NCBI GenBank assembly: GCA_031266435.1
Contig: JAISAZ010000025.1
Span: 1 to 33,214, forward strand
Origin: Accumulibacter sp.
GTDB taxonomy: Bacteria; Pseudomonadota; Gammaproteobacteria; Burkholderiales; Rhodocyclaceae
Direction of reading: 5' to 3'
DNA length: 33,214 nucleotides
The notes under the pieces were generated by a model, which ran no database searches, had not been told where the DNA came from, and saw only the letters and a program-made list of their open reading frames with translations. The position numbers and the translations under genes were made by a program. Positions 150-33,100 of the stretch are shown in pieces. How positions within the stretch are numbered: the stretch's first letter is position 1; each line of letters opens with the position of its first letter.

Positions 150-452
150 ATGACCGACAAAGAATTCCAAGCCTTGACCGATACGTTTTTCGAGCGGCTC
201 GCCCGCGCGCTCGACGGTTCCGACGCCGACCTCGTTCAGACGGGTTCGGGCGTTTTCGAGATCGAATTTGACAACGCAGAGTCGATCGTCGTCAACCGCC
301 ACGCGCCTTCGCGTGAAATATGGGTCGCCGCCCGATCGGGCGCGCATCATTTCCGGTGGAACGGCGAGGACTGGCGCGATACACGTTCCGACGAAACGAT
401 CCGCGCGGTGCTTTCCGGGATGATTGATCTGAGGACAGAGGACAGAAGATAG
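150..452 (+). CDS. cyaY: Iron donor protein CyaY (bacterial frataxin)
   Basis: The 100-residue product matches frataxin/CyaY in length and order: an acidic N-terminal helix (D/E at residues 3, 5, 11, 15, 22, 25 and 27), then beta-sheet motifs with VNRHAPSREIWVAARSG and FRWNGEDWRDTRS, the hallmark segment of the family. CyaY binds iron and modulates Fe-S assembly on IscS/IscU in the cytosol. It lies divergent from the lptM-like gene and convergent with mrcA. The last seven codons (LRTEDRR) and the TAG stop are encoded by repeat element R1, so the natural C-terminus has probably been replaced or extended. The RBS before the ATG is weak. Confidence 0.93.
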   Translation: MTDKEFQALTDTFFERLARALDGSDADLVQTGSGVFEIEFDNAESIVVNRHAPSREIWVAARSGAHHFRWNGEDWRDTRSDETIRAVLSGMIDLRTEDRR

Positions 453-601
453 AAGACAGAGCGCTCACTGCGTTCGCTTTGTGATCAGTTTCCAGTATTC
501 AGATGTCGGATGGGATGCTCCCTCAGATTACGGATTACGGATTACTGATTACAAAGGCCGAAGGCCGCTCTGTCATCTGTCCTCAGTCCTCTGTCTTCTG
601 G
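430..601. repeat. Composite heptad-repeat hairpin element R1
   Basis: Left arm 431-461 consists of 7-bp units AGGACAG, AGGACAG, AAGATAG, AAGACAG. It is followed by GCGCTCACT/GCGTTCGCT, then TGATCAG-type heptads ending in TATTCAG, a GGATGGGATGCTCC block, four GATTACN heptads (about 528-552), a GGCCGAAGGCC mini-hairpin, and a right arm 568-601 of CTGTCNT heptads that is an imperfect reverse complement of the left arm. It overlaps the last codons of cyaY and stops 3 bp before the mrcA stop codon, filling the whole convergent intergenic space. It could act as a two-way transcript end, but lacks a T-tract. Confidence 0.85.
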
Positions 602-604
602 ATA

Positions 605-2962
605 TCAGGGTGTCACTTCGTGCATATGCTCGCTGATCGCGCGGGCGACCGCGTCGCGCGGCGGCGGGGTTTCGGTGTGTTCTTCCGGCGGCGGGACGTT
701 TTCCTTGTAGATCAACTCCCTGAGCATCGGCTTGTCGGGGTTCAGCGATTCGGCTTCGACCGAGACGAGCCCCGACGGCCGGGGCATGAAGGTTTGCGGA
801 ACGCCCTTGAGCGTCTTGTCCATATAGCCGATCCAGACCGGGAGCGCCGCGCTGCTGCCCGTTTCGCCGCGCCCCATTTTTTTCGGCTTGTCGTAGCCGA
901 TCCACGAGCACGCCGCGACGGTGCGCTGGTAGCCGCAGAACCACGTGTCCATGACGTCGTTCGTCGTCCCGGTCTTTCCGGCGAGGTCGCGCCTCCTGAG
1001 CTGGACAGTCGCGCGCGCCGCCGTGCCGTAGATCGTTACGTCGCGGAGCATGCTGTCCATCAAATAAGCGTTGCGGGGGTCGATGACCTGGATCGACTTG
1101 TCGCCGGCGCCGACCGGCTCCGCCTGCGCGAGCACCTGATCCCTGCTGTCGACGATGCCCTGGACGATATACGGCTGGATACGGTATCCGCCGTTGGCGA
1201 ATACCGAGTACGCCGTGACCATCTGCCAGGGCGTGACGAGGCCGGCGCCGAGCGCCATCGTCAGGACGGGCGGGTGCTTTTCGCCGTCGAAGCCGAAGCG
1301 TGTGATGTAGTCGTGGATGAAGCTGATGTTGCTTTCCTGCAAGAGGCGGATCGAAACCATGTTTTTCGACTTGGCGAGCGCCATCCTGAGGTGGATCGGC
1401 CCTTCGTATTTCCCGTCGTAATTCTTGGGGTCCCACGTCTGGCTTCCCGTGATCGACGCGGGCAGGTTGATCGGCTCGTCGTCGACGATCGTCGCCGGCG
1501 TGAAGCCTTTTTCGAGCGATCCCGAATAAATGAAGGGCTTGAAGCTCGACCCCGGCTGACGCCACGCCTGCGTCGCGTGGTTGAACATGTTGCGGTCGAA
1601 GTCGAAGCCTCCCACGAGCGCGCGAACCGCGCCCGTTTGGGGGTCGACCGAAATGAAGGCGGCTTCGACTTCAGGGCGCTGGACGATGCGCAACTTGTTT
1701 TTTTCGTCGCGTTGTATCCTGACGACGGCACCCTTGCGCAGCCGCTTGTTCGCCGGCGCGTTGTCGCCGGTCATCCGCGCCACGAGTTTCAGGCCCTCGT
1801 CTCGGATTTCGAGGAGTTCGCCTCCGCGCCGATAGAGCTGGACACGGGCAGGTTCGGCTTCTAGGACGACGGCGACGAGCAGGTCTTCTTCGTCGTGAAA
1901 GCTCTGCAGGCGCTCGTCGAGTTTATCGTCCTGCCCCGAAATCGCTTGATTGATTTCGATGAAGGCTTCGGGGCCTCGGTAGCCGTGCCTCAAATCGTAG
2001 TTGATCACGCCCTGGCGGAGGCTTTCGTAGGCCGCTTCCTGATCTTTTTTCAGAATCGTCGTGTAGACGCGGAAACCGTGCGTGTAGACGTCTTCCGGGA
2101 AACGCTCCTGAACCATCTGGCGGGCCATTTCGGCGACGAATTCGGCGTGGACGGGGAAATTGTTCAGACTGTTCGCGTTCCGCTGAACGATCAGGGGCTG
2201 CTTCAGGGCGTCTTCTCTTTGCGTTCTGTCGATGACGCCGATCTCGAGCATTTGGTTGAGGACGTAGGTCTGGCGCTGGCGCGCGAGTTTCGGGTTCGCG
2301 ATCGGGTTGTTTTTCGACGGCGAACTCGGCAGACCCGCGAGCATCGCGGCTTCGGCCAGCGTAACGTCTTTCAGGGGTTTGCCGAAATAAATCTGCGACG
2401 CGGCGGCGAAACCGTAGGCGCGCTGCCCCAAGGATATCTGGTTGATGTATAGTTCCAGAATCTGATCCTTGGTCAGATTGTTTTCTATTTTGAGAGACAG
2501 GAGTATTTCGTACAGTTTGCGGATATAGGTTTTTTCCGGGGAAAGGAAAAAATTCTTCGCGACCTGCTGGGTGATCGTCGAACCGCCTTGGCTTTTTCTT
2601 CCGCGCAGGACGTTGGCGCGGATGGCCCTTGCGATGCTGACCGGGTTGACGCCGCTGTGCTGGTAAAAATGTTTGTCTTCCGCAGCTAAAATGGCCCACT
2701 TCATGACGTCAGGAACGTCCTGCATGCCGACGAGCGCGCGGCGTTCTTCTCCGAATTCGCCGATGAGGAAGCCGTCCGCCGTGTAGACCTTGAGCGGGAT
2801 TTTGGGCCGGTAGTCGGTCAGGATGTCGAGCGAAGGCAGTTTCGGATAGATCAGAGTGGCGACGATGACGACGGCGGAGACGCCCATCACGGTCACTCCG
2901 GCAAGAAAGGCGAGCGGGTAAAGAACCCAGCGGGGGACGACCCGGCGAAAAGTGGCGCGCAA
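605..2962 (-). CDS. mrcA: Penicillin-binding protein 1A (bifunctional glycosyltransferase / transpeptidase)
   Basis: The 785-residue class A PBP polymerises lipid II glycan and cross-links peptides in the periplasm while anchored in the inner membrane. It has an N-terminal membrane segment (about 14-37) and a GT51 domain with the catalytic Glu95 in AAEDKHF and GGSTITQQVAKN at 126-137. After a long insertion typical of PBP1A comes the transpeptidase with nucleophile Ser472 (SSFK, 472-475), SKN at 532-534 and KTGT at 663-666. All key residues are present. The start is TTG at 2962-2960, since no in-frame ATG lies close upstream; no good RBS is visible. In many proteobacteria mrcA is divergent from pilM, as here. 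The stop lies next to repeat R1. Confidence 0.97.
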   Translation of the reverse strand: MRATFRRVVPRWVLYPLAFLAGVTVMGVSAVVIVATLIYPKLPSLDILTDYRPKIPLKVYTADGFLIGEFGEERRALVGMQDVPDVMKWAILAAEDKHFYQHSGVNPVSIARAIRANVLRGRKSQGGSTITQQVAKNFFLSPEKTYIRKLYEILLSLKIENNLTKDQILELYINQISLGQRAYGFAAASQIYFGKPLKDVTLAEAAMLAGLPSSPSKNNPIANPKLARQRQTYVLNQMLEIGVIDRTQREDALKQPLIVQRNANSLNNFPVHAEFVAEMARQMVQERFPEDVYTHGFRVYTTILKKDQEAAYESLRQGVINYDLRHGYRGPEAFIEINQAISGQDDKLDERLQSFHDEEDLLVAVVLEAEPARVQLYRRGGELLEIRDEGLKLVARMTGDNAPANKRLRKGAVVRIQRDEKNKLRIVQRPEVEAAFISVDPQTGAVRALVGGFDFDRNMFNHATQAWRQPGSSFKPFIYSGSLEKGFTPATIVDDEPINLPASITGSQTWDPKNYDGKYEGPIHLRMALAKSKNMVSIRLLQESNISFIHDYITRFGFDGEKHPPVLTMALGAGLVTPWQMVTAYSVFANGGYRIQPYIVQGIVDSRDQVLAQAEPVGAGDKSIQVIDPRNAYLMDSMLRDVTIYGTAARATVQLRRRDLAGKTGTTNDVMDTWFCGYQRTVAACSWIGYDKPKKMGRGETGSSAALPVWIGYMDKTLKGVPQTFMPRPSGLVSVEAESLNPDKPMLRELIYKENVPPPEEHTETPPPRDAVARAISEHMHEVTP

Positions 2963-2994
2963 AGCAGTTTGTCGGAAGAAATGAACGAATTTGG

Positions 2995-3000
2995 ATTATA
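2995..3000 (-). promoter_or_regulatory. Candidate -10 box of mrcA
   Basis: A perfect TATAAT reads on the minus strand 33 bp upstream of the mrcA TTG start. The best upstream match at usual spacing is weak (TTTTCA-like at 3020-3015, 14-bp spacer), so recruitment may depend on an extended -10 or an activator. The call is by inspection only. Confidence 0.45.
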
Positions 3001-3045
3001 AACGTAATTTTGTGTGAAAAAGGTCACGAGAATCGAGAAAAAAGC

Positions 3046-3073
3046 TTTACATGCTCAATGCGTCTGTTATCAT
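3046..3073 (+). promoter_or_regulatory. Sigma70-type promoter of the pilMNOPQ operon
   Basis: TTTACA (3046-3051) and TATCAT (3068-3073) are separated by 16 bp in the AT-rich pilM/mrcA divergent region. The start codon of pilM is 69 bp further on, leaving room for a leader of about 60 nt containing the GGGAG ribosome site (3130-3134). No other candidate in this gap is as good. Confidence 0.6.
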
Positions 3074-3142
3074 CTTAAAGTGAATTATCAATATTGTCGC
3101 TAACTATCAATATTCAAAAGGTTTTTAACGGGAGATATTAAT

Positions 3143-8118: not shown

Positions 8119-8143
8119 GCGGAGCGGGAACTTACGCAACGAG

Positions 8144-8169
8144 AAAGCCGGCTTCCCTGCCGGCTTTTT
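8144..8169 (+). terminator. Intrinsic terminator of the pil operon
   Basis: The stem AAAGCCGGC (8144-8152) pairs perfectly with GCCGGCTTT (8159-8167) around a 6-nt loop, and the T-tract TTTTT runs 8165-8169. It sits 26 bp after the pilQ stop and before aroK, so aroK-aroB is probably transcribed separately. Confidence 0.85.
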
Positions 8170-8197
8170 CGTTTCAGCGATCGATGCGCGCTTGCGG

Positions 8198-10015: not shown

Positions 10016-16138
<6,123 letters not shown>

Positions 16139-20271: not shown

Positions 20272-20273
20272 GG

Positions 20274-20440
20274 ATCAGAGGACAGATGACAGAGGACAGA
20301 TGACAGGACGGCCTGCGGCCTTTGTAATCAGGGTTCAGTAGTCTGAAGGAGTATCCTACGCGACATCTGAATACTGAAGACAGACCACGGAGCGAACGCA
20401 GTGAGCGCTCTGTCATCTGTCCTCAGTCTTCTGTCTTCTG
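20274..20440. repeat. Composite heptad-repeat element R2
   Basis: Begins with CAGAGGACAGATGACAG-type heptads 3 bp after the glmS stop, then a GGCCTGCGGCC mini-hairpin (about 20310-20321), degenerate TCAG heptads, CATCTGAATACTGAA, GCGAACGCA/GTGAGCGCT and a closing arm of CTGTCNT heptads to 20440. It is the reverse-oriented form of R1: the GGCC hairpin lies on the left. It fills nearly all of the glmS to UPF0126 gap. Confidence 0.85.
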
Positions 20441-20446
20441 TAAAAT
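20441..20446 (+). promoter_or_regulatory. -10-like box directly abutting repeat R2
   Basis: TAAAAT begins on the base after the last heptad of R2, 34 bp before the TTG start of the next gene. The -35 position (about 20418-20423) falls inside the repeat arm and is a poor match (TGTCCT). Confidence 0.35.
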
Positions 20447-20479
20447 GCCCCGAAGCGCAATTTTGGACGAGAGAAGCGA

Positions 20480-21127: not shown

Positions 21128-21129
21128 TT

Positions 21130-21330
21130 GACAGAGGACAGAAGACTGAGGACAGAAGACAGAGCGCTCGCTGACGCTCGCTTCGTGATCAGTTTTCAGT
21201 ATTCAGATGTCGCGGGGGACGCTCCTATAGGTTGGGCTGAACGAAGTGAAGCCCAACATCAGAATACAGATTACTGACTACAGAGGCCGAAGGCCGTTCA
21301 GTCCTCTGTCCTCTGTCTTCTGTCCTCTGA
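21130..21330. repeat. Composite heptad-repeat hairpin element R3
   Basis: Left arm of AGGACAG/AAGACTG heptads from 21130, then GCGCTCGCT/GACGCTCGC, TGATCAG-TTTTCAG-TATTCAG, a GGGGGACGCTCC block, an embedded GTTGGGCT...AGCCCAAC hairpin (21231-21257), GATTACT heptads, GGCCGAAGGCC and a right arm of CTGTCCT/CTGTCTT heptads to 21330. It lies between convergent genes, starts 3 bp after the UPF0126 stop, and its right half is translated as the parC C-terminus on the minus strand. Confidence 0.87.
21231..21257. repeat. GTTGGGC hairpin module inside R3
   Basis: GTTGGGCT (21231-21238) and AGCCCAAC (21250-21257) flank GAACGAAGTGA. The same TATAGGTTGGG...CCCAA module recurs in R4, R6 and R7, so it is a mobile or recombining sub-unit of the elements. 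Confidence 0.75.
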
Positions 21331-23629
21331 TACTCACCTCGTCGAGCGGGCCGACCGTGGCGCCACGGCGCGCGCGTTGTCCGAGATGTCGGGCTTCGGA
21401 CAGGATTTCTTTCGGGTGTTTGCGGCGCTTTCCTTCGATGCGTACCGTCGCGCCCTGGACGGCGATCGCCGATACGAGCGTTTCCCCGGCCTTCAAGCCG
21501 ATGATCTGTACGCCCTTGCCGCCGGAAAGCCGTTTCATCTGTTCGAGCGGGAAGACGAGCAGGCGACCGTCGCCGGAGAGCGCGGCGACGTGGTCTTTTC
21601 CGTCGACGCGCGAAGGCGGGAGGATAAAAGCGCCGTCCTCGACCGTCAGGAAGGTTTTCCCGCTCTTTTGGCGCGAAAGCAGGTCGCCGAAAGCGCAGAC
21701 GAAGCCGTAACCCGAAGACTTGGCGATCAGCCACTCGTCTTCGGGTTTTCCCGTGAAGACGTGCGCGATCTTTCCGCCGCCCAGATCGACGAAGGACGCG
21801 AGCGGCGCGCCGAGACCCCGACCGTCTGGGAGCGCGGCGACCGGCACGGTAAAGGCGCGCCCTTCGGTCGAGAGGATCACGAGCGCGTCTATCGAGCGGC
21901 ATTCCCACGCCGAACCCGGAGAATCGCCGTCCTTGTACGCGACGCTGTCGAGCTTGATCGCGTGTCCCTGACGCGCGCGCGCCCAGCCCTTCGCCGAGAC
22001 GATCAGTGTGACCGCCTCGTCCGCGACCGTCGCGGCTTCCTGGCGCGTGATCGTCGAAGCGGGTTCGATGAGCGTCCGTCGCGCGTCGGCGTATTTCGCC
22101 GCGTCGGCTTCGATTTCGCGCACGACGAGCCGGGAGAGGCGCGACTCGCTCGCGAGGAGTTTTTCGAGTTCGGCTTTTTCGGCGCGCAGCTTCTGAAGCT
22201 CCTGCTCGATCCGAAAGCCTTCGAGCCGCGCCAACTGGCGCAAGCGGATTTCGAGGATGTCTTCGGCCTGACGTTCGGAAAGCCCGAAGCGCTCGATGAG
22301 GCGCGGCTTGGGTTCGTCCGACGCGCGGATGATGCGGATGACCTCGTCGATATGCAGAAAGACGATGTGGCGGCCTTCGTTGATGTGGATGCGGTCGTCG
22401 GTGCGCGCGAGGCGGTGCGCGCTACGGCGGCGTACCGTCTCGATCCGGAAGCGGCGCCACTCGTCGAGCGTTTCGCGCAGCGTTTTCTGGCAAGGTCGAC
22501 CGTCGATTCCGACGGCGACGAGGTTGATCGGCGCGTTGATTTCGAGGCTCGTATGCGCGAGCAGCATCGCGGCGAATTCTTCGCGGTCGATGCGCGAATT
22601 CAGCGGTTCGAAGACGAGGCGCACGGCTTCGTCCTTGTCGGATTCGTCGCGCGCGCGCTCGACCTGCGACGCGAAGAGCGCTTTGAGCTGCGCCGCCGAT
22701 TGCTCGGCGCTTTTTTTCCCCGATCGAAGCTGAGGGTTCAGAATCGCGCCGATTTCGGAGAGAACGCGCGCCGCCGAGACTCCCGGCGGCAGCGCGCTGA
22801 CGACGAGCTGCCACGCGCCGCGCGCCATTTCTTCGAACGCGTAGCGCGCGCGAACGCGCAGACTGCCGCGCCCGGTCTCGTACGCGGCGGCGATCTCGGA
22901 CGCCTGCGAAATGATCTGCCCGCCTCCGGGGTAATCCGGCCCCGGAATGAAGCGGAGGAGTTCTTCCAAAGAGAGGTCGGGATTTTCGACGAGCGCGGCG
23001 GCGGCGCGCGCGACCTCGCCCAGGTTGTGCGGCGGGATTTCGGTCGCCATGCCGACGGCGATTCCCGACGCGCCGTTCAGCAAGCTAAAGGGCAGGCGCG
23101 CGGGCAAAAAGGCCGGCTCGTCGAACGCGCCGTCGTAATTGGAGCGAAAATCGACCGTCCCCTCGTCGATTTCGTTGAGCAGAAGTTCGGCGATCGGTTT
23201 CAAGCGCGCCTCGGTATAGCGCATCGCCGCCGCGTTGTCGCCGTCGCGCGAACCGAAGTTCCCCTGACCGTCGACGAGCGGGTAGCGCAGCGAAAAATCC
23301 TGCGCGATCCGCACCATCGCGTCGTACGCCGACACGTCGCCGTGCGGGTGGAATTTACCGATGACGTCGCCGACGACGCGCGCCGATTTCACAGGTTTCG
23401 CACCCGCCGAGAGGCCGAGTTCGCGCATCGCGTAAAGTACGCGGCGCTGTACGGGTTTCTGCCCGTCGCGCACATCCGGCAGCGCGCGCCCCTTGACGAC
23501 GGCGATCGCGTATTCGAGGTAGTCGCGCTCGGCCGATTCGTGCAGGAGGATGCTGTCGTCGTCGTCGGTGGCCTTGGGGGTGTCGTTCGTGAGCGGTAAA
23601 TCGTCGAAGAGGTCGGGGGTGTCGTTCAT
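21278..23629 (-). CDS. parC: DNA topoisomerase IV subunit A
   Basis: The 783-residue type IIA topoisomerase subunit decatenates chromosomes together with ParE, which is not in the window. Features are [20 protein letters not shown] (about 49-68), HPHGD (94-98), catalytic Tyr138 in [22 protein letters not shown] and a C-terminal beta-pinwheel. The pattern [22 protein letters not shown]-like around Tyr138 and [20 protein letters not shown] separate it from GyrA. The position following HPHGD (Ser80 in E. coli ParC) is Val99. The native end was probably near DEVS; the final residues [16 protein letters not shown] are encoded by repeat R3. It is 17 bp downstream of the DUF898 gene stop, hence likely co-transcribed with it. 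Confidence 0.95.
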
Positions 23630-23646
23630 CGTGGGCGCTTTTGCTC

Positions 23647-24855
23647 CTAGAGCGAAATGTCGAAGTCGAAGGCGTCGAGGATTTCCTCACCCGTCGCGCG
23701 TGTCTCCTCGGAGACCTTGCCGACGAAGTCGTCGAGTCCGCCCTCGGTGACGAGCAGGGTATTCCGCGCGCGGTACGCGGCGAGGCGGACTTTTGCCCAC
23801 GGCCAGTAAAGCCCCAGCGTCAGCAGCGTGAACAGCCAATTGACCGCGGTCAGCGCGAACAGTCCCTTGAAGGTCTGCGTGCTGACGAAGCAATGCCTGT
23901 CGAGCGCCGTGTTGTTCCAGACGAAGTTCGCCGTGCGCGACTGGTAGTACGCGAGGAAGATGGACAGGAAGACGAGATACCACAACATCATGGTGAGCGT
24001 GAAGATAAGAAAGATTGCCCCGCCTTCAGGCTTGGCTCCTCCCATCACACTGATGAAAAAGGGAACGAAGCAGAAAGTGAGGATGAGCATGAAAACGATC
24101 AAGATCAGGGCCGCGCGAAGAAAAATCGCGTAAAAGGCGCGCGGCCAGATCTTCGTTTTGAAAAGCGAATCGCCGAACGAAAGATTATTGAGTTGAAAGC
24201 GCTTGAGAGCGCAATACATCGCCGGAAACGCGAGCGCGAACGCGATCGTGGGGGAGAGCATCATCCAGAGTTGCGCCGTCGTAAAATCCATTCCCCCGGT
24301 ACTTATGAACTCGTTCGTCGCGTAATTCGCAAGGAATGCGGTGCCGACGAAAAGAATGATATAGGGCAGGAAAGTCATCAGGCACTCGCGGTAGGTGCTG
24401 TGGAAATTGAAGTGCAGGCCGCGATACGAAATGTTCCGCGCGCGAAAGGAGAAAGAACGGACGAGCAGCCACGGTGCGATCGGCGCGACGGCGATCAAGG
24501 CGTAGATGTAAAACGAAGGAAGGAAATTCTTCAGGAGGCCGAGCACGACGAGAAGGCCGTAGGCGATGAGGCGCCCCTTGAGGATCGCGATCGCCTTCCC
24601 GTGGTAGTCGAAACCGCTGCCGTCGAGGAGCGTGTTTCGATGGAAGTACTGCTCGCGCCGCACCTTCGCCCACGCCGAATAAATCCCCAGCGTGATGATG
24701 CTGAGGATGAGGTTGAGGATCCAGATGCGGAAGTATTCACCGCCCGAACCCGTGAACTCGAAAGCGCATTCGACCGTCGCGTTCGGAGGTATTTCGCTGG
24801 GCGCTACGCTTGATGCGTCTTCGGGAAGGTCGAAGGTGTCGTTCGTCGCATTCAT
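23647..24855 (-). CDS. DUF898 (YjgN-like) multi-pass membrane protein, without J-like domain
   Basis: The 402-residue protein has a short polar N-terminus (1-30) and then the DUF898 membrane region. The motif [17 protein letters not shown] near residue 56 recurs near the end as [17 protein letters not shown], and two weaker copies ([19 protein letters not shown] and [18 protein letters not shown]) lie between, so the family seems to be built from about four related units. YjgN-family function is unknown. The ATG at 24855 has a good ribosome site (GGAGGA, minus strand). It is adjacent to an M48 peptidase gene, a pairing often seen for this family, and upstream of parC on the same strand. Confidence 0.85.
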
Positions 24856-24914
24856 GTCTTTCCTCCGAAAAAAGGCCGGCCAATCCGGTTCGGAAGGCGG
24901 CAGTTTACCGCGAA

Positions 24915-25306
24915 ACAGAGTTCAGAAGACTGAAGACAGAAGACTGAGGACAGAATTGTGATCTGTTTTCAGTATTCAGTGATGCGCCTGCGGAACGTTG
25001 TGGCTCTCGTTCCTCAGCCCAACCTATACCGCCGAAGACGGAGCGGAGACGCTATAGCTTGGGCTGAACGGAGTGAGAGCCACAACGTTTCCGGGGCGGT
25101 ATGGTTCAGGAGACAGAAGACTGAGGACTGAGGACTGAGGACTGAGGACAGAGGACAGAGGACAGAGGACAGAGCGGCCTTCGGCCTTTGTGTAGGCATC
25201 AGTAATCAGAAGGAGGAAGTCATGCGACAACAGAATACTGAAAACTGATCACGAAGCGAGCGTCAGCGAGCGCTCTGTCTTCTGTCTTCAGTCCTCTGTC
25301 TTCTGA
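24915..25306. repeat. Composite heptad-repeat element R4 (largest, about 390 bp)
   Basis: Left heptads (24920-24955) and TTTTCAG/TATTCAG, then a long hairpin of the GTTGGGC type (24994-25089), a pure heptad array about 25112-25173 (ACTGAGG about four times, then ACAGAGG about four times), a GGCCTTCGGCC mini-hairpin, CATCAGTAATCAG heptads, GCGAGCGTCAGCGAGCG and a final arm of CTGTCTT heptads to 25306. It holds the whole gap between the DUF898 and M48 genes; I see no other gene in this stretch of more than 400 bp. The final 19 bp overlap the end of the M48 gene. Confidence 0.85.
24994..25089. repeat. Long imperfect hairpin within R4
   Basis: The 35-nt arm at 24994-25028 (AACGTTGTGGCTC...CAACCTATA) is almost the reverse complement of the 37-nt arm at 25053-25089, with a small internal mismatch patch and a 24-nt loop. 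Both ends close on AACGTT. Confidence 0.8.
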
Positions 25307-26343
25307 TTTCTCAATCGCCGGATGCGCTCGCCGGTCTCCGGGTGCGAGGAAAACCAGTCGAAGGATCGCTTTTTGTTCTCGCTCTCACACTGCTTTTCTT
25401 CGGAACCGCAAACGCTTTTGCGGTGCGCTTTTTCGAGTTTTTCGAGCGCGCTGACGAGCAGCAAGGGCGACAGCCCCTCGCGGCGCAGCACGGCGGCCGC
25501 GTAGTCGTCGGCTTCGAGTTCCATTTCGCGCGAGTATTTGCTGTTGAGCACCGCGGCGGAAAGACCGGCGACCAGGGTCGAGACGTCGCCGAGATAGATC
25601 GCGGCGGCAAAACCGACGACCGAAGACTGGATCAGCATCCTGACGCCGTGACGCTTGTGAAAATGGCCGAGTTCGTGCGCGAGAACGGCGAGCAACTCAT
25701 CGTCGCTTTCGGAGAGTTCGACGAGTTTGTCGAGCATGACGATCTGGCCACCGGGGAGCGTGAAAGCGTTCGGCCCCATGAAGCCGGCGTTTCGAAAGTA
25801 AAGGCGCAGATAAGACCGGTCGGGCGTGAGTTCGGGGTCGGCGGCGATGATTTCGCGGAAGCGATCGGCGAGCGCTTTTTGGCGCGCGGCGTCCAGGCCG
25901 GAGGATTTGAGCATATTTTTGTCGAAATCGTCGAAAAACCTTGCAGAAATCTTCTCCATCACCACGATGGGGACGTGCGGCGCGGCGACTTTTGCGACCC
26001 ACGGCAGACCCCAGAGATACGCGGCGCACACCGCCAGGCAAACACCGACGAGCGAAAAAAGCGCCCATCGCCAGCGGCTTTGCAGACGCACGGCGGTTGA
26101 ATCGCGGTGGCCGAGCTTTTTCAGCAGTTCGAGGAGTTCCGCGCTCTGCGGGACTTCGCAATAGTCGCCGTCGGGGAATCGCAGCGTTCGCGGCGCTTTC
26201 CCCTGGGGTTCGGAGACGAGCACTTCGGAAAAAATGACGCGCCGCTTTCCAGCCGACGTATGAAGAAGCAAGATACCGGGTTCGGCGTCGACGTGCGCCA
26301 CATGGCGCCGCGAACTCCGACCGTCGAAATAAAAGGCATCCAT
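25288..26343 (-). CDS. M48 family zinc metalloprotease, membrane-anchored
   Basis: The 351-residue protein has an N-terminal beta-rich domain (FDGRSSRRHVAHV at about 6-18, PRTLRFPDGDYCEVP near 51-65), one membrane helix (about 93-113) and an M48 catalytic domain with HELGH (223-227) and the third ligand region EMELEADDYAA (Glu275, Asp279). It resembles the M48 proteases adjacent to yjgN-like genes and probably cleaves envelope proteins; the target is unknown. The start codon at 26343 directly abuts repeat R5, with no ribosome site visible. The last residues (NQKTED) and the stop come from repeat R4. Confidence 0.88.
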   Translation of the reverse strand: MDAFYFDGRSSRRHVAHVDAEPGILLLHTSAGKRRVIFSEVLVSEPQGKAPRTLRFPDGDYCEVPQSAELLELLKKLGHRDSTAVRLQSRWRWALFSLVGVCLAVCAAYLWGLPWVAKVAAPHVPIVVMEKISARFFDDFDKNMLKSSGLDAARQKALADRFREIIAADPELTPDRSYLRLYFRNAGFMGPNAFTLPGGQIVMLDKLVELSESDDELLAVLAHELGHFHKRHGVRMLIQSSVVGFAAAIYLGDVSTLVAGLSAAVLNSKYSREMELEADDYAAAVLRREGLSPLLLVSALEKLEKAHRKSVCGSEEKQCESENKKRSFDWFSSHPETGERIRRLRNQKTED

Positions 26344-26344
26344 A

Positions 26345-26612
26345 TCAGGAGACAGGAGACAGAGGACGGGAGACAGAGCGCAAGCTACGCTTGCTTTGTG
26401 ATCTGTGTTCGGTATTCAGATGTCGCATGGGTAGCTCCTTTCAGGTATCAGATGTCAGGGGCCAGGTATCAAAACCCACCCCGGTCCCTCCCTTGTCAGG
26501 GAGGGGAGGGATGGGGAAGGGTTCCCGATCGGTGTTTTGTTGTCTCTTCTCCGACCGAAGGCCGCAAGAATTCTCTGTCTCCCGACATCTGTCTCCTGTT
26601 TCCTGTCTTCTG
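26345..26612. repeat. Composite heptad-repeat element R5
   Basis: Starts with AGGAGACAGGAGACAG heptads at the M48 start codon, then GCGCAAGCTACGCTTGC, TGTTCGGTATTCAG, CAGGTATCAG units, a CCCTCCC...GGGAGGG hairpin with a G-rich run, GATCGGTGTTTTGTTG, a CCGAAGGCCGC block and a right arm of CTGTCTC/CTGTTTC heptads ending 4 bp before the next stop codon. Its right third is almost identical to that of R6. No gene seen in this interval. Confidence 0.82.
26486..26521 (+). other. G-rich run with G-quadruplex potential next to a CCCTCCC hairpin
   Basis: CCCTCCC (26486-26492) pairs with GGGAGGG (26499-26505), and the plus strand 26499-26521 has five runs of three to four G separated by one or two bases. 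Hairpin and quadruplex would compete. Confidence 0.5.
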
Positions 26613-26616
26613 AAAA

Positions 26617-28047
26617 TCATAACGCAATATCGAAGTCGAAAACGTCGAGAATTTCCTCGCCGGTGGCGCGCGTCTCTTCGGAAACCTTCCCGACGAAGTT
26701 GTCGAGGCCGCCCTCGGCGACGAGCACGGTGTTCCGTGCGCGGTACGCGGCAAGTTTGACCTTGGCCCACGGCCAGTAGAGTCCCAGCGTCAGCAGCGTG
26801 AAAAACGTGTTGACCGCGATCACCGTGAGCAGCCCCCCGAAAGTCTGCGTGCTGACGAAATAATGCCTATCGAGCGTCGTGTTATTCCACATGAAGTTTG
26901 CCGTGCGCGACTGGTAGTACGCGAGGAAGCTGGCATGGAAGACGAGAAGCATCAAGGTCGGAGTGGACAAGAAGAAGAGGATATGGCCCGCCTCGCTTGG
27001 AGATACTCCCCCTTCACGCACGTACATGTAGTTGCCAGCGATCCAGAGCGCGAGGGGGATGCAGAAGACGACGAGAATCAGAGTCGTGCGAAAAAAAATT
27101 CCGTAAAACGCGCGCGCCCGTATCCCGGTTTTGAAACGCGAATCGCCGAACGAAAGATTATTGAGCTGAAAACGTTTGAGATCGCAATACAACGCAGGAA
27201 ACATGAGCGCGAACGTGAGGAAGGGAGACGCCATCATCAGCACTTGCGGCCCCGAAGGATCACTCGCCTGTCCGGCGCTTATCATCTCGTTCGTCCCATG
27301 GTACGCAAGGAATACGGCGCCGACGAAAAGAACGAGGTAGGGCAGGAAGGTCATCAGGCATTCCCGATACGTGCTGTGGAAATTGAGTCGCAGCCCACGA
27401 TACGAAGTATTGCGCGCGCGGAAAGCGAAAGAACGCACGAGCAGCCATGGGAAGATCGGAGACACCACGAGCAAGGCGGGCGGGTAGTATAAAGGGGAAA
27501 AAGTATCGACCGCGCTGAGCGCGAAGAAGATGCCGTAGGCGATGAGGCGCCCCTTGAGGATCGCGGTCGGCCTGCCGTAGTAGTCGAAACCGCTGCCGTC
27601 GAGGAGCGTATTGCGGTGGAAATACTGCTCGCGCCGCACTTTCGCCCACGCCGAATAGATTCCCAGCGTGAGAATGCTGAGGACGAGGTTGAGGATCCAG
27701 ATGCGGAAGTACTCGCCACCCGAACCCATGAATTCAAAAGCGTATGTGTCCGGCGTTTTCGATCGCGTTTCGGAAAGGGCGTCGCGCGGCGCGGTCGGGG
27801 CGCTTGCGTCTGGAAAGGCGTCCGGCGAAGGTGTGCCGAAAAGCGCATGGTCGTACGCTGCTTTTCGGTCGGGGTCGCGCAGGACGGCATAAGCCTCCTG
27901 CATTGCGTCGAAGTCTTCCTTGGGAAATGGTCGCCCCTCCTTGTGGTGCGCAACGAAGCGCCGCAACGCCCTGTCGTGCGCCGCGTCGACTTCCACCTGC
28001 ATCGCGCCGTCCCTCAGACCGAGGAGCTGATAGTGATTTTTTTGCAT
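26617..28047 (-). CDS. J-like domain / DUF898 fusion membrane protein, copy A
   Basis: The 476-residue protein starts with a J-like domain (about 4-71): HYQLLGL, an AAHDRALRRF helix, then FDAMQEAYAVLRDPDRKAAYD, matching helices I-IV of DnaJ. The HPD tripeptide is missing (FVAHHKEG at 31-38), so Hsp70 activation is unlikely. A linker (72-100) leads to a full DUF898 membrane region ([34 protein letters not shown]). It is a close paralogue of copy B and of the J-less gene at 23647-24855. A TTGAAA-17-TAGAAT promoter precedes it. Function unknown. Confidence 0.85.
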   Translation of the reverse strand: MQKNHYQLLGLRDGAMQVEVDAAHDRALRRFVAHHKEGRPFPKEDFDAMQEAYAVLRDPDRKAAYDHALFGTPSPDAFPDASAPTAPRDALSETRSKTPDTYAFEFMGSGGEYFRIWILNLVLSILTLGIYSAWAKVRREQYFHRNTLLDGSGFDYYGRPTAILKGRLIAYGIFFALSAVDTFSPLYYPPALLVVSPIFPWLLVRSFAFRARNTSYRGLRLNFHSTYRECLMTFLPYLVLFVGAVFLAYHGTNEMISAGQASDPSGPQVLMMASPFLTFALMFPALYCDLKRFQLNNLSFGDSRFKTGIRARAFYGIFFRTTLILVVFCIPLALWIAGNYMYVREGGVSPSEAGHILFFLSTPTLMLLVFHASFLAYYQSRTANFMWNNTTLDRHYFVSTQTFGGLLTVIAVNTFFTLLTLGLYWPWAKVKLAAYRARNTVLVAEGGLDNFVGKVSEETRATGEEILDVFDFDIAL

Positions 28048-28074
28048 CCGCGTGTATTCGACCCCGAAAGGAAC

Positions 28075-28103
28075 ATTCTAAACGCGTAAGCGGAGTTTTT
28101 CAA
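28075..28103 (-). promoter_or_regulatory. Sigma70-type promoter of J-DUF898 copy A
   Basis: On the minus strand TTGAAA (28103-28098), a 17-bp spacer and TAGAAT (28080-28075) lie about 28 bp upstream of the start codon, predicting a leader of about 20 nt. The same promoter precedes copy B. Its -35 is at the edge of repeat R6. Confidence 0.65.
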
Positions 28104-28293
28104 TCAGAGGTATAGGTTGGGGTGAGCGCAGCGATGCCCAACGATTCCGCAGGCGCATATCAGGTATCAGGAATCAGGAGACGGGAGACAGGAGACAGAT
28201 GGAAACCGATCGGTATTTTGTTGTCTCTTCTGCGGCCGAAGGCCGCAAGAATTCTCTGTCTCCCGACATCTGTCTCCTGTTTCCTGTCTTCTG
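28103..28293. repeat. Composite repeat element R6
   Basis: Contains the TATAGGTTGGG...CCCAAC module (28111-28142), CAGGTATCAGGAATCAG heptads, AGGAGACGGGAGACAG heptads, AACCGATCGGTATTTTGTTG (28204-28223), GCGGCCGAAGGCCGC hairpin and a right arm of CTGTCTC/CTGTTTC heptads ending 4 bp before the copy B stop codon. Right part matches R5, left part matches R7. No gene seen in the interval. Confidence 0.82.
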
Positions 28294-28297
28294 AAAA

Positions 28298-29731
28298 TCA
28301 TAACGCAATATCGAAGTCGAAAACGTCGAGAATTTCTTCACCTGCGGCGCGCGTTTCTTCGGAAACCTTCCCGACGAAGTTGTCGAGGCCGCCCTCGGCG
28401 ACGAGCACGGTGTTCCGCGCGCGGTAAGCGGCGAGCTTGACCTTGGCCCACGGCCAGTAAAGCCCTAGGGACAACAGCGTGAGAAGTCCGTTGGAGACGA
28501 GGATCGCGAACAGTTCCTTGAAAGCCTGCGTACTGACGAATTGGCGTCTGTCGAGCGTCGTATGGTCCCATACGAAATTTGCGGCGCGCGACTGAAAATA
28601 AGCGAGGGTTGCGATTTGGGTCGCAAGAAGCAACAACATCATGATAACCGAGAAAAGAATACCTTTCGGCAACAATCGAGACGCCACGGTGGCAAAGAGA
28701 AAGAAGAGAACGATAGATGCCAAGCTCGTCAGCACCGTGCGCAGGAAGATCGCGTAAAACCCGCCGAAGCCCGCCGCGCACTTGAAGCGTGACCGACCGA
28801 ACAAGAGGTTGTTGATCTGGAATCGCTTGAAGCTGCCGAAGATCGCCGGGAATACCAGCGCGAGGACGAGAGGCAGAGTCAGCGCCATCAGGATTTGCAT
28901 CCCAAAGGAATATCCTCGGCTGCCGCCGCGCATTTTATGCCAGAAGAGTAGGATGACGGCGAGGAAAAGCAGAAGGTAGGGCAGGAAGGTGATCACGCAC
29001 TGCATATACGTGCCGTGGAAATTGAAACGCAGCCCGCGATACGAAGTATTGCGCGCCCGGAAACCGAAGGAACGGACGAGCAGCCACGGGACGATCGGAG
29101 ACGCCGCAAGCAAGGCAAGCGGGTAGAAAAAAGGGAAAAAATTTTCCACCACGCTGAGCGTGAGGAAGAGACCGTAAGCGATGATGCGCCCCTTGAGGAT
29201 CGCGGTCGGTCTGCCGTGGTAGTCGAAGCCGCTGCCGTCGAGAAGCGTATTGCGGTGGAAATACTGCTCGCGGCGCACCTTCGCCCACGCCGAATAGATT
29301 CCCAGCGTGAGAATGCTGAGGACGAGGTTGAAGATCCAGATGCGGAAGTATTCGCCACCGGACCCCGTGAACTCGAAAGCGTAGCTGACCGGCTCTTTCG
29401 ATCGCGCTTCCCAGAGGGGGTCGCGCGGCGCGATTTCGCCGTCGCCACCGCCCGGAATGCCCCGCCCGTCGGGGAAAGTCGCGTTCGGAAGAGCTTGCCG
29501 CGCGACGGGGGAGGGTGCGCCGAAGAGTTCCCGGTCGTACACGGCTCTTCGGACGGGTTCGCGCAATACGGCGTAGGCTTCCTCCATCGCATCGAAGTCT
29601 TCCTGCGAAAGCGGCTGCCCCTCCTTGTGGTGCCGGACGAAGCGCCGCAACGCCCTGTCATGCGCCGCCTTGACCTCCTCCTGCGTCGCGCTCTCCCTCA
29701 GGCCGAGGAGCTGATAGTGATTTTTATGCAT
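28298..29731 (-). CDS. J-like domain / DUF898 fusion membrane protein, copy B
   Basis: The 477-residue paralogue of copy A. The J-like domain (4-71) again has HYQLLGL, AAHDRALRRF, FDAMEEAYAVLREPVRRAVYD and lacks HPD (FVRHHKEG). The linker is longer and contains a Gly/Asp-rich patch (about 83-103). The DUF898 region is nearly identical to copy A at both ends ([17 protein letters not shown]; the last 38 residues differ at one position) but diverges strongly in the middle (about 240-390). Same promoter as copy A. Function unknown; a membrane role of the DUF898 domain is inferred from hydrophobicity. Confidence 0.85.
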   Translation of the reverse strand: MHKNHYQLLGLRESATQEEVKAAHDRALRRFVRHHKEGQPLSQEDFDAMEEAYAVLREPVRRAVYDRELFGAPSPVARQALPNATFPDGRGIPGGGDGEIAPRDPLWEARSKEPVSYAFEFTGSGGEYFRIWIFNLVLSILTLGIYSAWAKVRREQYFHRNTLLDGSGFDYHGRPTAILKGRIIAYGLFLTLSVVENFFPFFYPLALLAASPIVPWLLVRSFGFRARNTSYRGLRFNFHGTYMQCVITFLPYLLLFLAVILLFWHKMRGGSRGYSFGMQILMALTLPLVLALVFPAIFGSFKRFQINNLLFGRSRFKCAAGFGGFYAIFLRTVLTSLASIVLFFLFATVASRLLPKGILFSVIMMLLLLATQIATLAYFQSRAANFVWDHTTLDRRQFVSTQAFKELFAILVSNGLLTLLSLGLYWPWAKVKLAAYRARNTVLVAEGGLDNFVGKVSEETRAAGEEILDVFDFDIAL

Positions 29732-29758
29732 ACACGCGTATTCGACCCCGAAGGGAAC

Positions 29759-29787
29759 ATTCTAAACGCGTAAGCGGGGATTTTCAA
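29759..29787 (-). promoter_or_regulatory. Sigma70-type promoter of J-DUF898 copy B
   Basis: TTGAAA (29787-29782), 17-bp spacer, TAGAAT (29764-29759) on the minus strand, 28 bp before the start codon. Identical boxes to copy A with small spacer changes. Confidence 0.65.
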
Positions 29788-29979
29788 TCAGAGGTATAGG
29801 TTGGGGTGAGCGCAGCGATGCCCAAGGTTTCGCTTGCGCGAAGCGCAAACCATTTCAGGTATCAGGAATCAGGTATCAGGAATCAGATCAGTTAGCGGCG
29901 GCGTTGCCGCCGGAGAGAATCAACAAAATACCGATCGGTTTTCATCTGATCCCTGTCATCTGATTCCTGATACCTGATC
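29786..29979. repeat. Composite repeat element R7
   Basis: Contains the TATAGGTTGGG...CCCAA module (29795-29825), a hairpin GGTTTCGCTTGCGCGAAGCG (about 29826-29851), CAGGTAT/CAGGAAT heptads (29857-29888), a GGCGGCGTTGCCGCC hairpin, CAACAAAATACCGATCGGTT (29921-29940, the inverted form of the R6 segment) and a closing arm of CTGATNC heptads running up to the parA stop codon. Arms pair with each other (TATCAGGAATCAG with CTGATTCCTGATA). No gene seen. Confidence 0.82.
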
Positions 29980-30603
29980 TCAGGCTTCCACCCACTCGAG
30001 GAGCGGCGCCCACTGCTCCAGGTCCTTTTCCGCGCGCGAGAACGAAAGGTCGAAAATCGTCATTCCGTTGGCGGCGGTCTGCACGTAAAGCTGCGTATCT
30101 CTCAAATACGTGAGGACGGGCAGGCCGCAGGATTCGAGAAAGCGTTCGAGTTCGGCAGCCGCGCGCGTCCGGGCGTCGACGCGCATTCCGACGACGGCGA
30201 TGAAGACTTTTTCCTTGCGGACGGCTTTTTCTTCCATCAGCGTTTCGATGAAACCGCGCGCCGCGAGAATGTCGAAGATCGACGGCTGAACCGGGACGAC
30301 GACGCGGTCAATGCGTTTCAGAATGCTTTCGAGCGCCTTGCCGCGCAGACCCGCGGGCGTGTCGAGGACGACGCGCGTCGTCCCTTCGGGCGCGCGGATT
30401 CGCGCGTCCTTCCCGATGACCGCCGCGTGGATTTTCGGGAGCAGCGACGGACGCAGTCCCAGCCAGTCGCGCGAAGATTGCTGGCGGTCGGCGTCGCCGA
30501 GCATCACGCCGTGCCCGCGCGAAGCGAAGTAACCCGCGAGGTTGACAGCGAGCGTCGATTTCCCGGAGCCGCCCTTCGGATTGGCGATCAGAAACGATTT
30601 CAT
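29980..30603 (-). CDS. ParA/MinD-type ATPase coupled to uvrD
   Basis: The 207-residue protein has the deviant Walker A motif KGGSGKST (10-17, with signature Lys10), a Walker A' region (LGDADRQQSSRDWL) and a Walker B-like VVLDTPAGL. It is a compact single-domain ParA. I chose the ATG at 30603, which overlaps the uvrD stop (ATGA), rather than the in-frame ATG at 30639, which would lie inside uvrD and add 12 residues not seen in ParA proteins. No parB is next to it, so it may position something other than the chromosome origin; its cargo is unknown. The stop lies at the edge of repeat R7. Confidence 0.88.
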   Translation of the reverse strand: MKSFLIANPKGGSGKSTLAVNLAGYFASRGHGVMLGDADRQQSSRDWLGLRPSLLPKIHAAVIGKDARIRAPEGTTRVVLDTPAGLRGKALESILKRIDRVVVPVQPSIFDILAARGFIETLMEEKAVRKEKVFIAVVGMRVDARTRAAAELERFLESCGLPVLTYLRDTQLYVQTAANGMTIFDLSFSRAEKDLEQWAPLLEWVEA

Positions 30604-32951
30604 GCGGGTGTCAGATGTGCGTACGCGAGCGACAGCCACTTCGTCCCGGCGCGCCCGAATTCGACCTGGACGCGCGCGTCGCTCCCGTAGCCCTCGGCTG
30701 AAACGATGACGCCCTGGCCGAATTTGGCGTGCGCGACGCTCTGGCCGATGCGGAATCCGTTGATCTCACCTCCTTCGGCGAGCGAAGACGCTTTGCCGAA
30801 GGAGACCGTCTCGTTTCTCCGGCTCCGGGACGCGCCGGAGCCGTTGGAGAAGTCGTTGGAAAAGCTCTTGGAAGAGTTCCTGGAAAAATCCCTGGAAAAT
30901 TCGCCGGAGAAGTTCGTCGAAGCGCGCGCGAGGCTCCCGCGCGTCGAAAACGCGCTTCCCGACGACGATGTGGCGCGCTTTTTCAGCAAATTTTCGGGGA
31001 TTTCGTCGAGAAAGGACGACGGCAGGCCGTAGCGCGTCTGTCCGTGCAACATGCGCGCGCGCGCGTACGAGAAATAGAGCTTTTTACGCGCGCGCGTGAT
31101 CGCCACGTACATCAGGCGGCGCTCCTCTTCGAGACCGTCGCGGTCCGCCGCCGAGTTCTCGTGCGGGAAAAGCCCTTCTTCGAGGCCGGTGATGAAAACC
31201 TCGTCGAATTCCAGACCCTTCGCGGCGTGCACGGTCATCAATTGCACGGCCTCGTCTCTTTCACCCGCCTGGTGTTCGCCGGATTCGAGCGACGCGTAAG
31301 CGAGGAAGGCCGCGAGAGGGTCGGCGCCGCTCTCTTCCTCCGGGAGTTCCGTTCTCTCGTCGAGAAAGCTCGTGGCGGCGCTGACGAGTTCGTTGAGGTT
31401 TTCGAGACGCTCGCGGCCCTCCTTCTCCTTGAGGTAGTGTTCGCGCAGCCCGCTCTTGTCGAGCACGAGTTCGACGGTCTCCGGGAGCGTGAGCGCCTGC
31501 GCATCGACGCGAAGCGCCTCGATGAGGCGGATGAAGTTGGCGACCGAGGCGCCCGCTTTCCCGCCGAGTCCCGCCGCCGCGTTGTAAAGGCTCGAATGCG
31601 TGAGACGCGCGTTTTCGACAAGCGCCTCGACGCTTCTTCCGCCGATGCCGCGCGTCGGGAAGTTGACGACGCGCGCGAACGCGCTGTCGTCGTCCGGGTT
31701 GGCGAGAAGCCGCAGGTAAGCGAGCGCGTGCCGGATTTCCTGGCGGTCGAAAAAGCGCTGACCGCCATAGACGCGGTAAGACACGCCGTTCGAAAACAGT
31801 TGATGTTCGAGTACGCGCGATTGCGCGTTGGAGCGGTAAAGAAAAGCGATCTGCATCGGCGGGACGCCCGCGCGGATGCGCTCGCGCGCCTGATTGACGA
31901 CGCTGCGCGCTTCGTCGAGGTCCGTCGCGCATTCGAAGACCGAAATACGCCCGCCCGCGCCCGAATCGGTCCAGAGGTTTTTGCCGAGGCGCCCCCGGTT
32001 ATTCTTGATCAAGGCGTTCGCGGCGTCGAGGATGTTCCCGAACGAACGGTAATTCTGCTCGAGGCGGATCACGTTTTCGATATGGAATTCGCGCTCCAGG
32101 TCGCGCATATTGCCGACATCGGCGCCGCGAAACGCGTAGATCGACTGATCGTCGTCGCCAACGGCGAAAAGACACGCGCGCGTCGAAGCCTCTTCGTTCC
32201 CCTCTGTGTGCGCGTCCGGCACGGCGGGAGCGGAAGGCGCGTACCCTCCTGCCAGCAGTTTCAGCCACGCGTACTGCAGGCGGTTCGTATCCTGGAACTC
32301 GTCGACGAGGATGTGGCGGAAACGCGCTTGGTAATGCGTTCGCAAAGGCTCGTTGCGACGCATGAGTTCGAAGGTTCGCAGCAAGAGTTCGGCAAAATCG
32401 ACGACGCCCTCGCGCTGGCATTGCGCGTCGTACTCGGCGAAGATCGCGACGCGCTTTTTCGTGTGTTCGTCGTAGGCTTCGGCGTTCGCCGCGCGGAGAC
32501 CCTGCTCCTTGTGCGCGTTGATGAAGTGCGCGATCTCGCGCGGCGGAAATTTTTCCTCGTTGAGATTCAAGGTCTTCAACAGGCGTTTCACCGCCGAGAG
32601 CTGGTCGGATGCGTCGAGAATCTGGAAAGACTGCGGCAATTCCGCCTCGCGGTGGTGCGCGCGCAAAAAACGGTTGCACAGCCCGTGGAAAGTCCCGATC
32701 CACATCCCGCGCGCGTTGATCGGCAACATCGCCGACACGCGCGCGAGCATTTCCTTCGCCGCCTTGTTCGTAAAAGTGACCGCCATCACTTCGCGCGGGA
32801 AAGCCTTCCCCGTCGCCAGCAGCCACGCGATCCGCGTCGTCAAAACGCGCGTCTTGCCGCTCCCCGCTCCGGCGAGGATCAGCGCGTGCTGCGCCGGCAG
32901 CGTGACCGCGGCGCGTTGTTCGGGGTTGAGTTTATCGAGAAAGTCGTGCAT
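30600..32951 (-). CDS. uvrD: UvrD/PcrA/Rep-type superfamily 1 DNA helicase
   Basis: The 783-residue 3'-5' helicase acts in repair and replication. It has a Q motif (LNPEQRAAV, 8-16), Walker A AGAGSGKT (27-34), VTFTNKAAKEM, Walker B VDEFQDTN, DDQSIYAFRGAD, VHAAKGLEFDEVF and YVAITRARKKL. The C-terminal tail (730-783) with FGQGVIVS and GTKWLSLAYAHL matches the UvrD/PcrA Tudor-like domain. The linker before it (about 662-729) is an unusual Ser/Phe/Asn/Arg low-complexity stretch with a four-residue rhythm (FSGEFSRDFSRNSSKSFS). UvrD versus Rep cannot be settled fully, but the C-terminal domain favours UvrD. It is translationally coupled to the ParA gene. Confidence 0.93.
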   Translation of the reverse strand: MHDFLDKLNPEQRAAVTLPAQHALILAGAGSGKTRVLTTRIAWLLATGKAFPREVMAVTFTNKAAKEMLARVSAMLPINARGMWIGTFHGLCNRFLRAHHREAELPQSFQILDASDQLSAVKRLLKTLNLNEEKFPPREIAHFINAHKEQGLRAANAEAYDEHTKKRVAIFAEYDAQCQREGVVDFAELLLRTFELMRRNEPLRTHYQARFRHILVDEFQDTNRLQYAWLKLLAGGYAPSAPAVPDAHTEGNEEASTRACLFAVGDDDQSIYAFRGADVGNMRDLEREFHIENVIRLEQNYRSFGNILDAANALIKNNRGRLGKNLWTDSGAGGRISVFECATDLDEARSVVNQARERIRAGVPPMQIAFLYRSNAQSRVLEHQLFSNGVSYRVYGGQRFFDRQEIRHALAYLRLLANPDDDSAFARVVNFPTRGIGGRSVEALVENARLTHSSLYNAAAGLGGKAGASVANFIRLIEALRVDAQALTLPETVELVLDKSGLREHYLKEKEGRERLENLNELVSAATSFLDERTELPEEESGADPLAAFLAYASLESGEHQAGERDEAVQLMTVHAAKGLEFDEVFITGLEEGLFPHENSAADRDGLEEERRLMYVAITRARKKLYFSYARARMLHGQTRYGLPSSFLDEIPENLLKKRATSSSGSAFSTRGSLARASTNFSGEFSRDFSRNSSKSFSNDFSNGSGASRSRRNETVSFGKASSLAEGGEINGFRIGQSVAHAKFGQGVIVSAEGYGSDARVQVEFGRAGTKWLSLAYAHLTPA

Positions 32952-32984
32952 CGAAATCGAAACCGTAGAATTGTACTTTCCCCG

Positions 32985-32990
32985 ATTATA
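32985..32990 (-). promoter_or_regulatory. -10 box of uvrD, next to repeat R8
   Basis: A perfect TATAAT reads on the minus strand 33 bp before the uvrD start codon. The repeat begins one or two bases upstream, so the -35 position lies in the heptad arm and matches TTGACA poorly. Confidence 0.5.
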
Positions 32991-32991
32991 C

Positions 32992-33100
32992 TGTCAGAGG
33001 ACAGAAGACAGAGGATAGAAGACAGAGCGCTCGCTGCGCTCGCTTTGTGATCAGTGTTCAGTATTCAGATGCAGGATGGGACGCTCCATCTGATTAGTAA
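32992..33100. repeat. Half-length composite element R8
   Basis: Only the left half of the R1/R3 type is present: AGGACAG/AAGACAG/AGGATAG heptads, a perfect GCGCTCGCT GCGCTCGCT direct repeat, TGATCAG-TGTTCAG-TATTCAG and the GGATGGGACGCTCC block, then it breaks off at CTGATTAGTAA. The GGCC hairpin and right arm are missing. Confidence 0.82.

Follow-up and report, generated by a model that had tools for sequence, protein, structure and literature searches.

The contig JAISAZ010000025.1 of Accumulibacter sp., 33,214 nucleotides (nt) long and referred to over its whole length as the window, carries eight short intergenic elements, R1 to R8, whose arms are inverted arrays of tandem 7-bp units (heptads). 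In our view, R1-R8 probably belong, as short and non-autonomous members without an S23 gene, to a class of hairpin elements with heptad arms; the gene-bearing members of this class carry one small gene, S23 (PF05635), and include intervening sequences (IVSs) of 23S rRNA. Two arm dialects occur in the window, A[G/A/T]GACAG in family I (R1-R4 and R8) and CAGGTAT/CAGGAAT in family II (R7), with R5 and R6 being mixed. In a congener, genome G007, family I-type arms of the form TCAG-AGGACAG-AAGACAG...CTGTCCTCTGA flank an S23 gene inserted in 23S rRNA, reading TCAGAGGACAGAAGACAG... on one side of the gene and ...CTGTCTTCTGTCCTCTGA on the other, the position inside 23S rRNA being given by RF02541. All eight matches of G007 to a heptad pattern are located in its two copies of this insert, and a short stem-loop occupies the same place in genomes G005, G006, G009 and G026. 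We take the insert for a helix-45 IVS, the helix number being assigned by likeness to a published case. When arms were scored against S23 flanks (the arms of R2 and R4 were not included), R8, R3 and R1 reached 56, 54 and 40 with the G007 insert, versus 21, 24 and 21, respectively, with the best of 70 other S23 flanks. Family I thus has the same-dialect inverted arms that characterize an S23 element (40-56 versus 21-24), and family II has them more weakly. An insert of genome G077, an IVS of another family, has CAGGAAT/CAGGGAT/CAGATCAG heptads, and family II resembles IVS arms less clearly than family I does. According to one published account, the number of GACAGAT heptads varies in an S23-bearing IVS, which RNase III cuts at the start of the first heptad (PMC4990558).

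The elements of the window and their copies

The initial annotation had described at least eight palindromic, heptad-armed elements in the window, and our analysis confirms eight, all lying between genes. Repeat finders return 7-bp arrays at the sites it had named, and the 14-mer AGGACAGAAGACAG, with at most one mismatch, matches the window 16 times, versus a mean of 0.01 and a maximum of 1 in 100 dinucleotide shuffles. The proposed modular plan can also be read in the sequence, namely a purine heptad arm, GCGCTCGCT 9-mers, NNNTCAG heptads, GGATGGGACGCTCC, GATTAC heptads, GGCC-GAA-GGCC and a pyrimidine heptad arm, and so can the swapping of modules: R3 and R4 contain an inner GTTGGGC hairpin, R5 is a hybrid, and R8 lacks its right half. 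Between the inverted arms lies a conserved, non-repeat core of about 110 bp.

R1, 428..600, plus strand: full family I element, with arms at about 431-460 and 568-600 and the core in between
R2, 20272..20440, minus strand: family I reversed, immediately 3' of the stop codon of glmS (18442-20271)
R3, 21128..21333, plus strand: family I with a GTTGGGC hairpin nested at 21226-21257; begins at the stop of the predicted gene to its left
R4a, 24915..24983, plus strand: incomplete family I arm and start of the core
R4b, 25096..25307, minus strand: family I reversed, with a 9-heptad array at 25112-25174
R5, 26344..26609, plus strand: hybrid, with a family I-like left half and a right end in common with R6
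R6, 28153..28290, plus strand: mixed, with CAGGTAT/CAGGAAT and CAGGAGA heptads
R7, 29853..29978, plus strand: family II, with a long, near-perfect CAGGTAT/CAGGAAT heptad stem
R8, 32994..33096, plus strand: family I left half, without the 3' arm

The window is contig G000:C97 of its own draft genome, G000 (2.66 Mb, 96% complete). Its parC-like protein has its closest named relative, 97% identical, in Accumulibacter sp. Gx485_bin129, and the sister genome G024 is the metagenome-assembled genome of that name (contig G024:C75 identical); we take isolate codes of this type to denote a termite gut origin. The sister contig G024:C190 terminates exactly at the glmS stop, which R2 directly follows in G000. 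R3 contains the stop codon of the parC-like open reading frame (ORF; 21278-23629, minus strand), with the overlap at 21278-21337, and a plus-strand ORF (150-452) has its stop inside R1 (428-452), so that the two elements would provide the last codons of these ORFs.

That many copies exist genome-wide, as the initial annotation had implied, is borne out. A search of G000 with R1 gives 40 near full-length places including R1, the other 39 at 81-88% identity (best 40 of 231 candidates). A triple-heptad pattern with at most one mismatch has 739 matches in G000, 724 in G025, 370 in G004, 280 in G001, 186 in G024, 74 in G011, 8 in G007, 3 in G021 and 1 in G016; 28 genomes of the genus were searched, and the remaining 19 gave no match. 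The elements are present in only some species of the genus. Because the heptads resemble their own reverse, the reversed pattern was unusable as a control, and the genomes with zero matches served instead. R1 itself matches 8 of 59 genomes including its own, all of one genus, and is near full-length only in G000 and G024. A 427,766-base sample of G000 holds 44 distinct elements that match the family I model over 100 or more of its positions; R5 and R6, which are mixed, and R8, which is half an element, are counted among them. Scaling by the pattern (232 of the 739 matches fall inside the sample) gives a rough estimate of about 140 elements per genome, a density biased upward because the contigs of this non-random sample were chosen among contigs with matches. 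Contig G000:C9 (length 7857) ends inside a pure AAGACAG array at 7753-7855, which suggests that assembly may break at long heptad arrays. The initial annotation had named two outcomes that would speak against it, copies confined to the window or identity with a catalogued repeat family; we find dispersed copies, and Rfam gives no match over the gathering score in the window.

In G025, family I arms surround a different core, with 43 near full-length places besides the query at 90-98% identity (best 40 of 423 candidates), so that the arms, and not the core, are common between species. The 24 copies with the exact core motif, from 20 loci, have sharp ends, mostly TCAG or CCAG on the left and CTGA or CTGG on the right, and differing flanks, except for three tandem copies at L276. 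These copies bear on the possibility that heptads born by slippage were expanded and shuffled by recombination without any mobility. The variable heptad number, the long arrays, the three tandem copies and an 83-bp internal duplication in G000 relative to G024 (L193/L211) would fit such a history, but the common TCAG/CTGA ends, the mostly different flanks and the inverted arms around a conserved non-repeat core argue against it, and we judge it very improbable. It had also been suggested that, with no transposase nearby, the elements may be moved in trans or spread by recombination or slippage. The sharp ends and flanks of the 24 copies weaken recombination or slippage alone, while the lack of a transposase holds in the G000 draft genome for the Y1 type (REP-associated tyrosine transposase, RAYT), with no PF01797 match and 0 candidates; control genomes were matched in 5 of 14 cases.

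The same search bears on the view that R1-R8 are elements like the repetitive extragenic palindromic (REP) sequences and their hairpin-forming REPINs, or derivatives of the insertion sequences (ISs) IS200/IS605, moved by a Y1 transposase. Palindromic, intergenic elements in many copies, lacking target duplications, would be expected of such a system, and R3 and R4 enclose a GTTGGGC hairpin that is distinct and REP-like. A GTAG-type end, however, is a mark of REP elements, whereas the window elements end in TCAG/CTGA; S23-bearing members exist, and PF01797 is unmatched in their own draft genome, so that we give this view only a small chance. Target duplications of 2-9 bp do not occur above the level of shuffles in 25 G025 and 53 G000 copies. 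This result, together with ends made of variable tandem heptads, also speaks against miniature inverted-repeat transposable elements of DDE-type ISs with terminal inverted repeats, which we regard as the least probable of the explanations considered, despite the inverted ends, several alternative cores and many similar copies in G025. Insertion into pre-existing hairpins was rejected as well, the host flanks being complementary no further than CAG/CTG.

Heptad arms and insertion sites of S23 genes

Seventy-one S23 loci were chosen blind to their flanks: 3 from the genus (leaving out L127, below the cut-off, and L128, a second copy), 30 order-wide (one locus, the best, from each of 30 genomes out of 83 with matches among 399), 30 phylum-wide (30 of 61 among 398) and 8 plasmid records (of 25). 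Results are given in the order genus plus order-wide (33), phylum-wide (30) and plasmid (8). The strongest period of the flanks is 7 in 60 loci, 14 in 5, 8 in 5 and 9 in 1; period 7 leads in 28/33, 26/30 and 6/8 loci, versus 24 of 302 control stretches. Mean lag-7 matches out of 28 are 20.8, 21.4 and 24.0, with controls at 12.3 and 12.6. The inverted match between the arms of one locus is 34.6, 39.5 and 41.6, versus 17.2, 18.6 and 18.4 between arms of different loci, and the direct match is 18.9 and 19.4, rising to 31.0 in plasmids. The inverted-match score is at least 29 in 24/33, 19/30 and 6/8 loci, or 49 of 71 (control 99th percentile, 28.4). Arm dialects differ greatly among loci and correlate with S23 similarity (64 of the 71 loci; Mantel r 0.357, 0 of 2000 permutations), a relation that still includes shared descent. 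The S23 gene is co-directional with its upstream neighbour in 48 of 62 cases and with its downstream neighbour in 44 of 54, and among 40 loci measured, 25 have an arm starting -10 to +20 nt from the stop of the upstream gene. The rule of 7-bp arms around S23 genes looks general. On two plasmids, of Anabaena (L172) and Pseudanabaena (L176), S23 genes with heptad flanks lie between cas6 and cas4 of CRISPR (clustered regularly interspaced short palindromic repeats) loci.

Both neighbours are shared with another locus in 45 of 68 S23 loci, forming 13 groups, 9 of which extend across families; ahcY-metF (by Pfam; L125 and L147) and 23S rRNA are examples of such recurring sites. S23s of different families at the same site are more alike than under shuffled labels (0.548 versus 0.44, 0 of 2000). 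The nearest cross-family S23 is at the same site in 11 of 31 loci and elsewhere in 20. Strict homing of S23 to a site is not shown, the best cross-family relative being at the same site in just those 11. Repeated insertion at favoured junctions would explain the recurring sites, as could fast divergence or thin sampling. Within the first 150 nt behind the ahcY end, found in 27 genus genomes, S23 is present in G021 only, and G004 has S23-less AGGACAG heptads there.

Gene ends, the RNA hairpin and points on the other side

The placement of the elements at gene ends, another claim of the initial annotation, is upheld in the G000 sample. The element midpoint is outside predicted genes in 43 of 44 elements (44 of 44 if a 30-nt overlap is permitted), and the 84 gene ends next to elements include 38 stops, overlapping or at most 30 nt away, and 3 starts. 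Convergent junctions are over-represented, with 14 of 42 elements versus 47 of 322 junctions (p 8e-4). These context counts are approximate because the genes were called with a home-made codon score, which in the window preferred a wrong ORF to glmS. Comparison of G000 with G024 reveals that junctions change their element: at L205/L215, G024 has family II and G000 two family I copies; at L186/L223, G024 has family I and G000 family II; and at L194/L218 one family I copy is common to both.

R1 is predicted to fold at -90.2 kcal/mol (z -8.8); the fold z-scores are -5.7 and -5.3 for two other family I copies, -9.9 for R7 (family II) and -10.8 for the G007 insert. Over 30 copies, the arms are 84.9-87.3% Watson-Crick paired at register shifts of 7, versus 11.6-39.1% at the other shifts tried. 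Tandem 7-mers allow the arms to pair in several registers with equal stability, and the gain or loss of a heptad leaves the hairpin intact. In our reading, a hairpin with heptad arms tolerates slippage, no compensatory change being needed.

These features suggest how the elements probably work. An element typically starts with TCAG-(purine heptad)n and finishes with (pyrimidine heptad)n-CTGA, in an intergenic position mostly beside a stop codon, and its RNA folds into a long stem that would serve as an RNase III substrate, so that the hairpin would be removed or trimmed. By analogy with the published IVS, the RNA hairpins of R1-R8 are probably cut by RNase III. Insertion behind a stop codon or in the tip of an rRNA helix would then cost little, since the element is either excised or becomes the 3' end. 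R1-R8 probably descend from an S23/IVS parent. We speculate that S23, a four-helix bundle, binds arms of its own dialect and mobilises the elements in trans, being the sole candidate mover, and that the acting S23 of heptad-rich genomes could lie in an unassembled 23S gene.

Several observations weigh against our interpretation. Outside family I the arm scores separate poorly: R7 reaches 42 and 40 with the G077 insert, but also 34 (L155) and 35 (L172) with other S23 arms; R5 scores 36 with the G007 insert versus 33 with L178; and R6 scores 26 versus 33 with L178, a Nostoc S23 arm, so that R6 does not share the dialect. The S23 gene has no match in G000 (5 candidates scored) or in the other five heptad-rich genomes (G024, G025, G001, G004 and G011), and 23S rRNA is matched in none of the six, being unassembled in G000; the parent element is thus not seen. 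Among the 71 S23 loci, six have a strongest period of 8 or 9 and 22 fall below the inverted-match threshold of 29 (lowest among the first 33: L155, L138, L131 and L141). By eye, the arms of L173 and L176 are direct, L264 has no visible arms, and arms are present in two of three extra loci. The 23S inserts of G010 and G022 lack a lag-7 signal (12 and 10 of 28), so that not every 23S insert is of the heptad kind. The hairpin has no covariation over 30 copies, with 2 of 37 consensus pairs showing a double change and an RNAalifold covariation term of -0.6. At register 170, the two arms of one copy have no pairing advantage over shuffled arms (53 of 500 shuffles equalled or exceeded them), and at register 177 they do worse (496 of 500). 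Finally, 6 of the 18 terminator-like sites in 20000-33214 fall within R3, R4b, R5 and R8, which favours a terminator role; all elements cover about 10% of that stretch, and shuffles give 16.1 sites (standard deviation 3.9).

The last point, together with the stops beside 38 of 84 flanking ends and the enrichment of convergent junctions, would suit transcription terminators or mRNA 3'-end hairpins that are spread and kept by selection and resemble IVS arms by convergence. Against this, the sister genomes differ at the same junction, with family I swapped for family II, covariation is lacking, and heptad matches are absent from 19 of 28 genomes of the genus; a position at gene ends may only reflect what is tolerated. 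We regard this explanation as unlikely.

The G010 and G022 inserts in 23S rRNA (L160 and L164) occupy the same place, are about 130-140 nt long, contain neither heptads nor S23 and have a GTGCG stem end.

Relation to known repeats and neighbouring features

REP elements, bacterial interspersed mosaic elements and REPINs are likewise short intergenic palindromes in many copies; the window elements differ from them in having tandem heptad arms and no GTAG end, and no Y1 transposase was found. In Betaproteobacteria, the NEMIS and Correia elements are intergenic hairpins that resemble the window elements in size; they undergo RNase III processing and have defined terminal inverted repeats and a TA duplication, whereas target duplication is not seen for the window elements. 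With the S23-bearing IVSs of 23S rRNA, R1-R8 have in common the inverted heptad arms (G007), the hairpin RNA and the patchy occurrence, and heptad units are on record for one IVS (PMC4990558). They differ in lying outside rRNA (all eight are between protein genes), in lacking S23, in their core of about 110 bp and in their dozens of copies. Like the cyanobacterial short tandemly repeated repetitive sequences (STRRs) and TAACTGA heptads (PMC4679880), they are 7-bp tandem units, intergenic, dispersed and patchy. Tandem intergenic heptanucleotides, the defining feature of STRRs, are present in the window, although its host is not a cyanobacterium. The TAACTGA sets are described as direct repeats, most of them located immediately 5' of a start codon (PMC4679880), whereas the window heptads form inverted hairpin arms. 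The terms S23, 23S and intervening were not found in the text of PMC4679880. Among the papers listed by an open-access literature search, none was seen to link non-rRNA S23 genes with heptad arms or to deal with dispersed S23-less IVS arms, which is weak evidence of absence as most subscription journals were outside its scope.

More tentatively, and somewhat short of an even chance, we propose that heptad-armed S23 elements form an unrecognised, cross-phylum class of mobile elements, with one four-helix-bundle gene between inverted 7-mers, no target duplication and a preference for junctions and rRNA helices. The 23S S23-IVSs would be one lineage of this class, and dispersed heptad hairpins, such as R1-R8 and possibly the cyanobacterial STRRs, its non-autonomous derivatives. 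The finding may indicate a type of mobile element that has so far gone unnoticed, and the origin of 23S intervening sequences and the nature of dispersed 7-bp repeats could merge into one puzzle. For the S23 family, the heptad hairpin becomes a partner that can be tested, and a concrete hypothesis on its role follows, that of an element-encoded RNA- or DNA-binding factor. Heptad-rich Accumulibacter-like genomes, in which the same arms bear different cores, lend themselves to comparison.

Two other palindromes accompany the heptad elements. A repeat of REP-like form, TATAG-GTTGGGC...GCCCAAC, occurs in or beside them at 21226-21257, 25053-25084, 28111-28142 and 29795-29826, and a third one, with the pattern GGGCACGGCGNGCCGTGCCC, is found repeatedly next to heptad elements in G000 (L227, 15700-16600; L223, near 11483-13753). 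The window also contains a row of DUF898 genes (23647-24855, 26617-28047 and 28298-29731) with heptad elements in between, two of them called by Pfam, one with an N-terminal DnaJ domain, and the third by DNA likeness.

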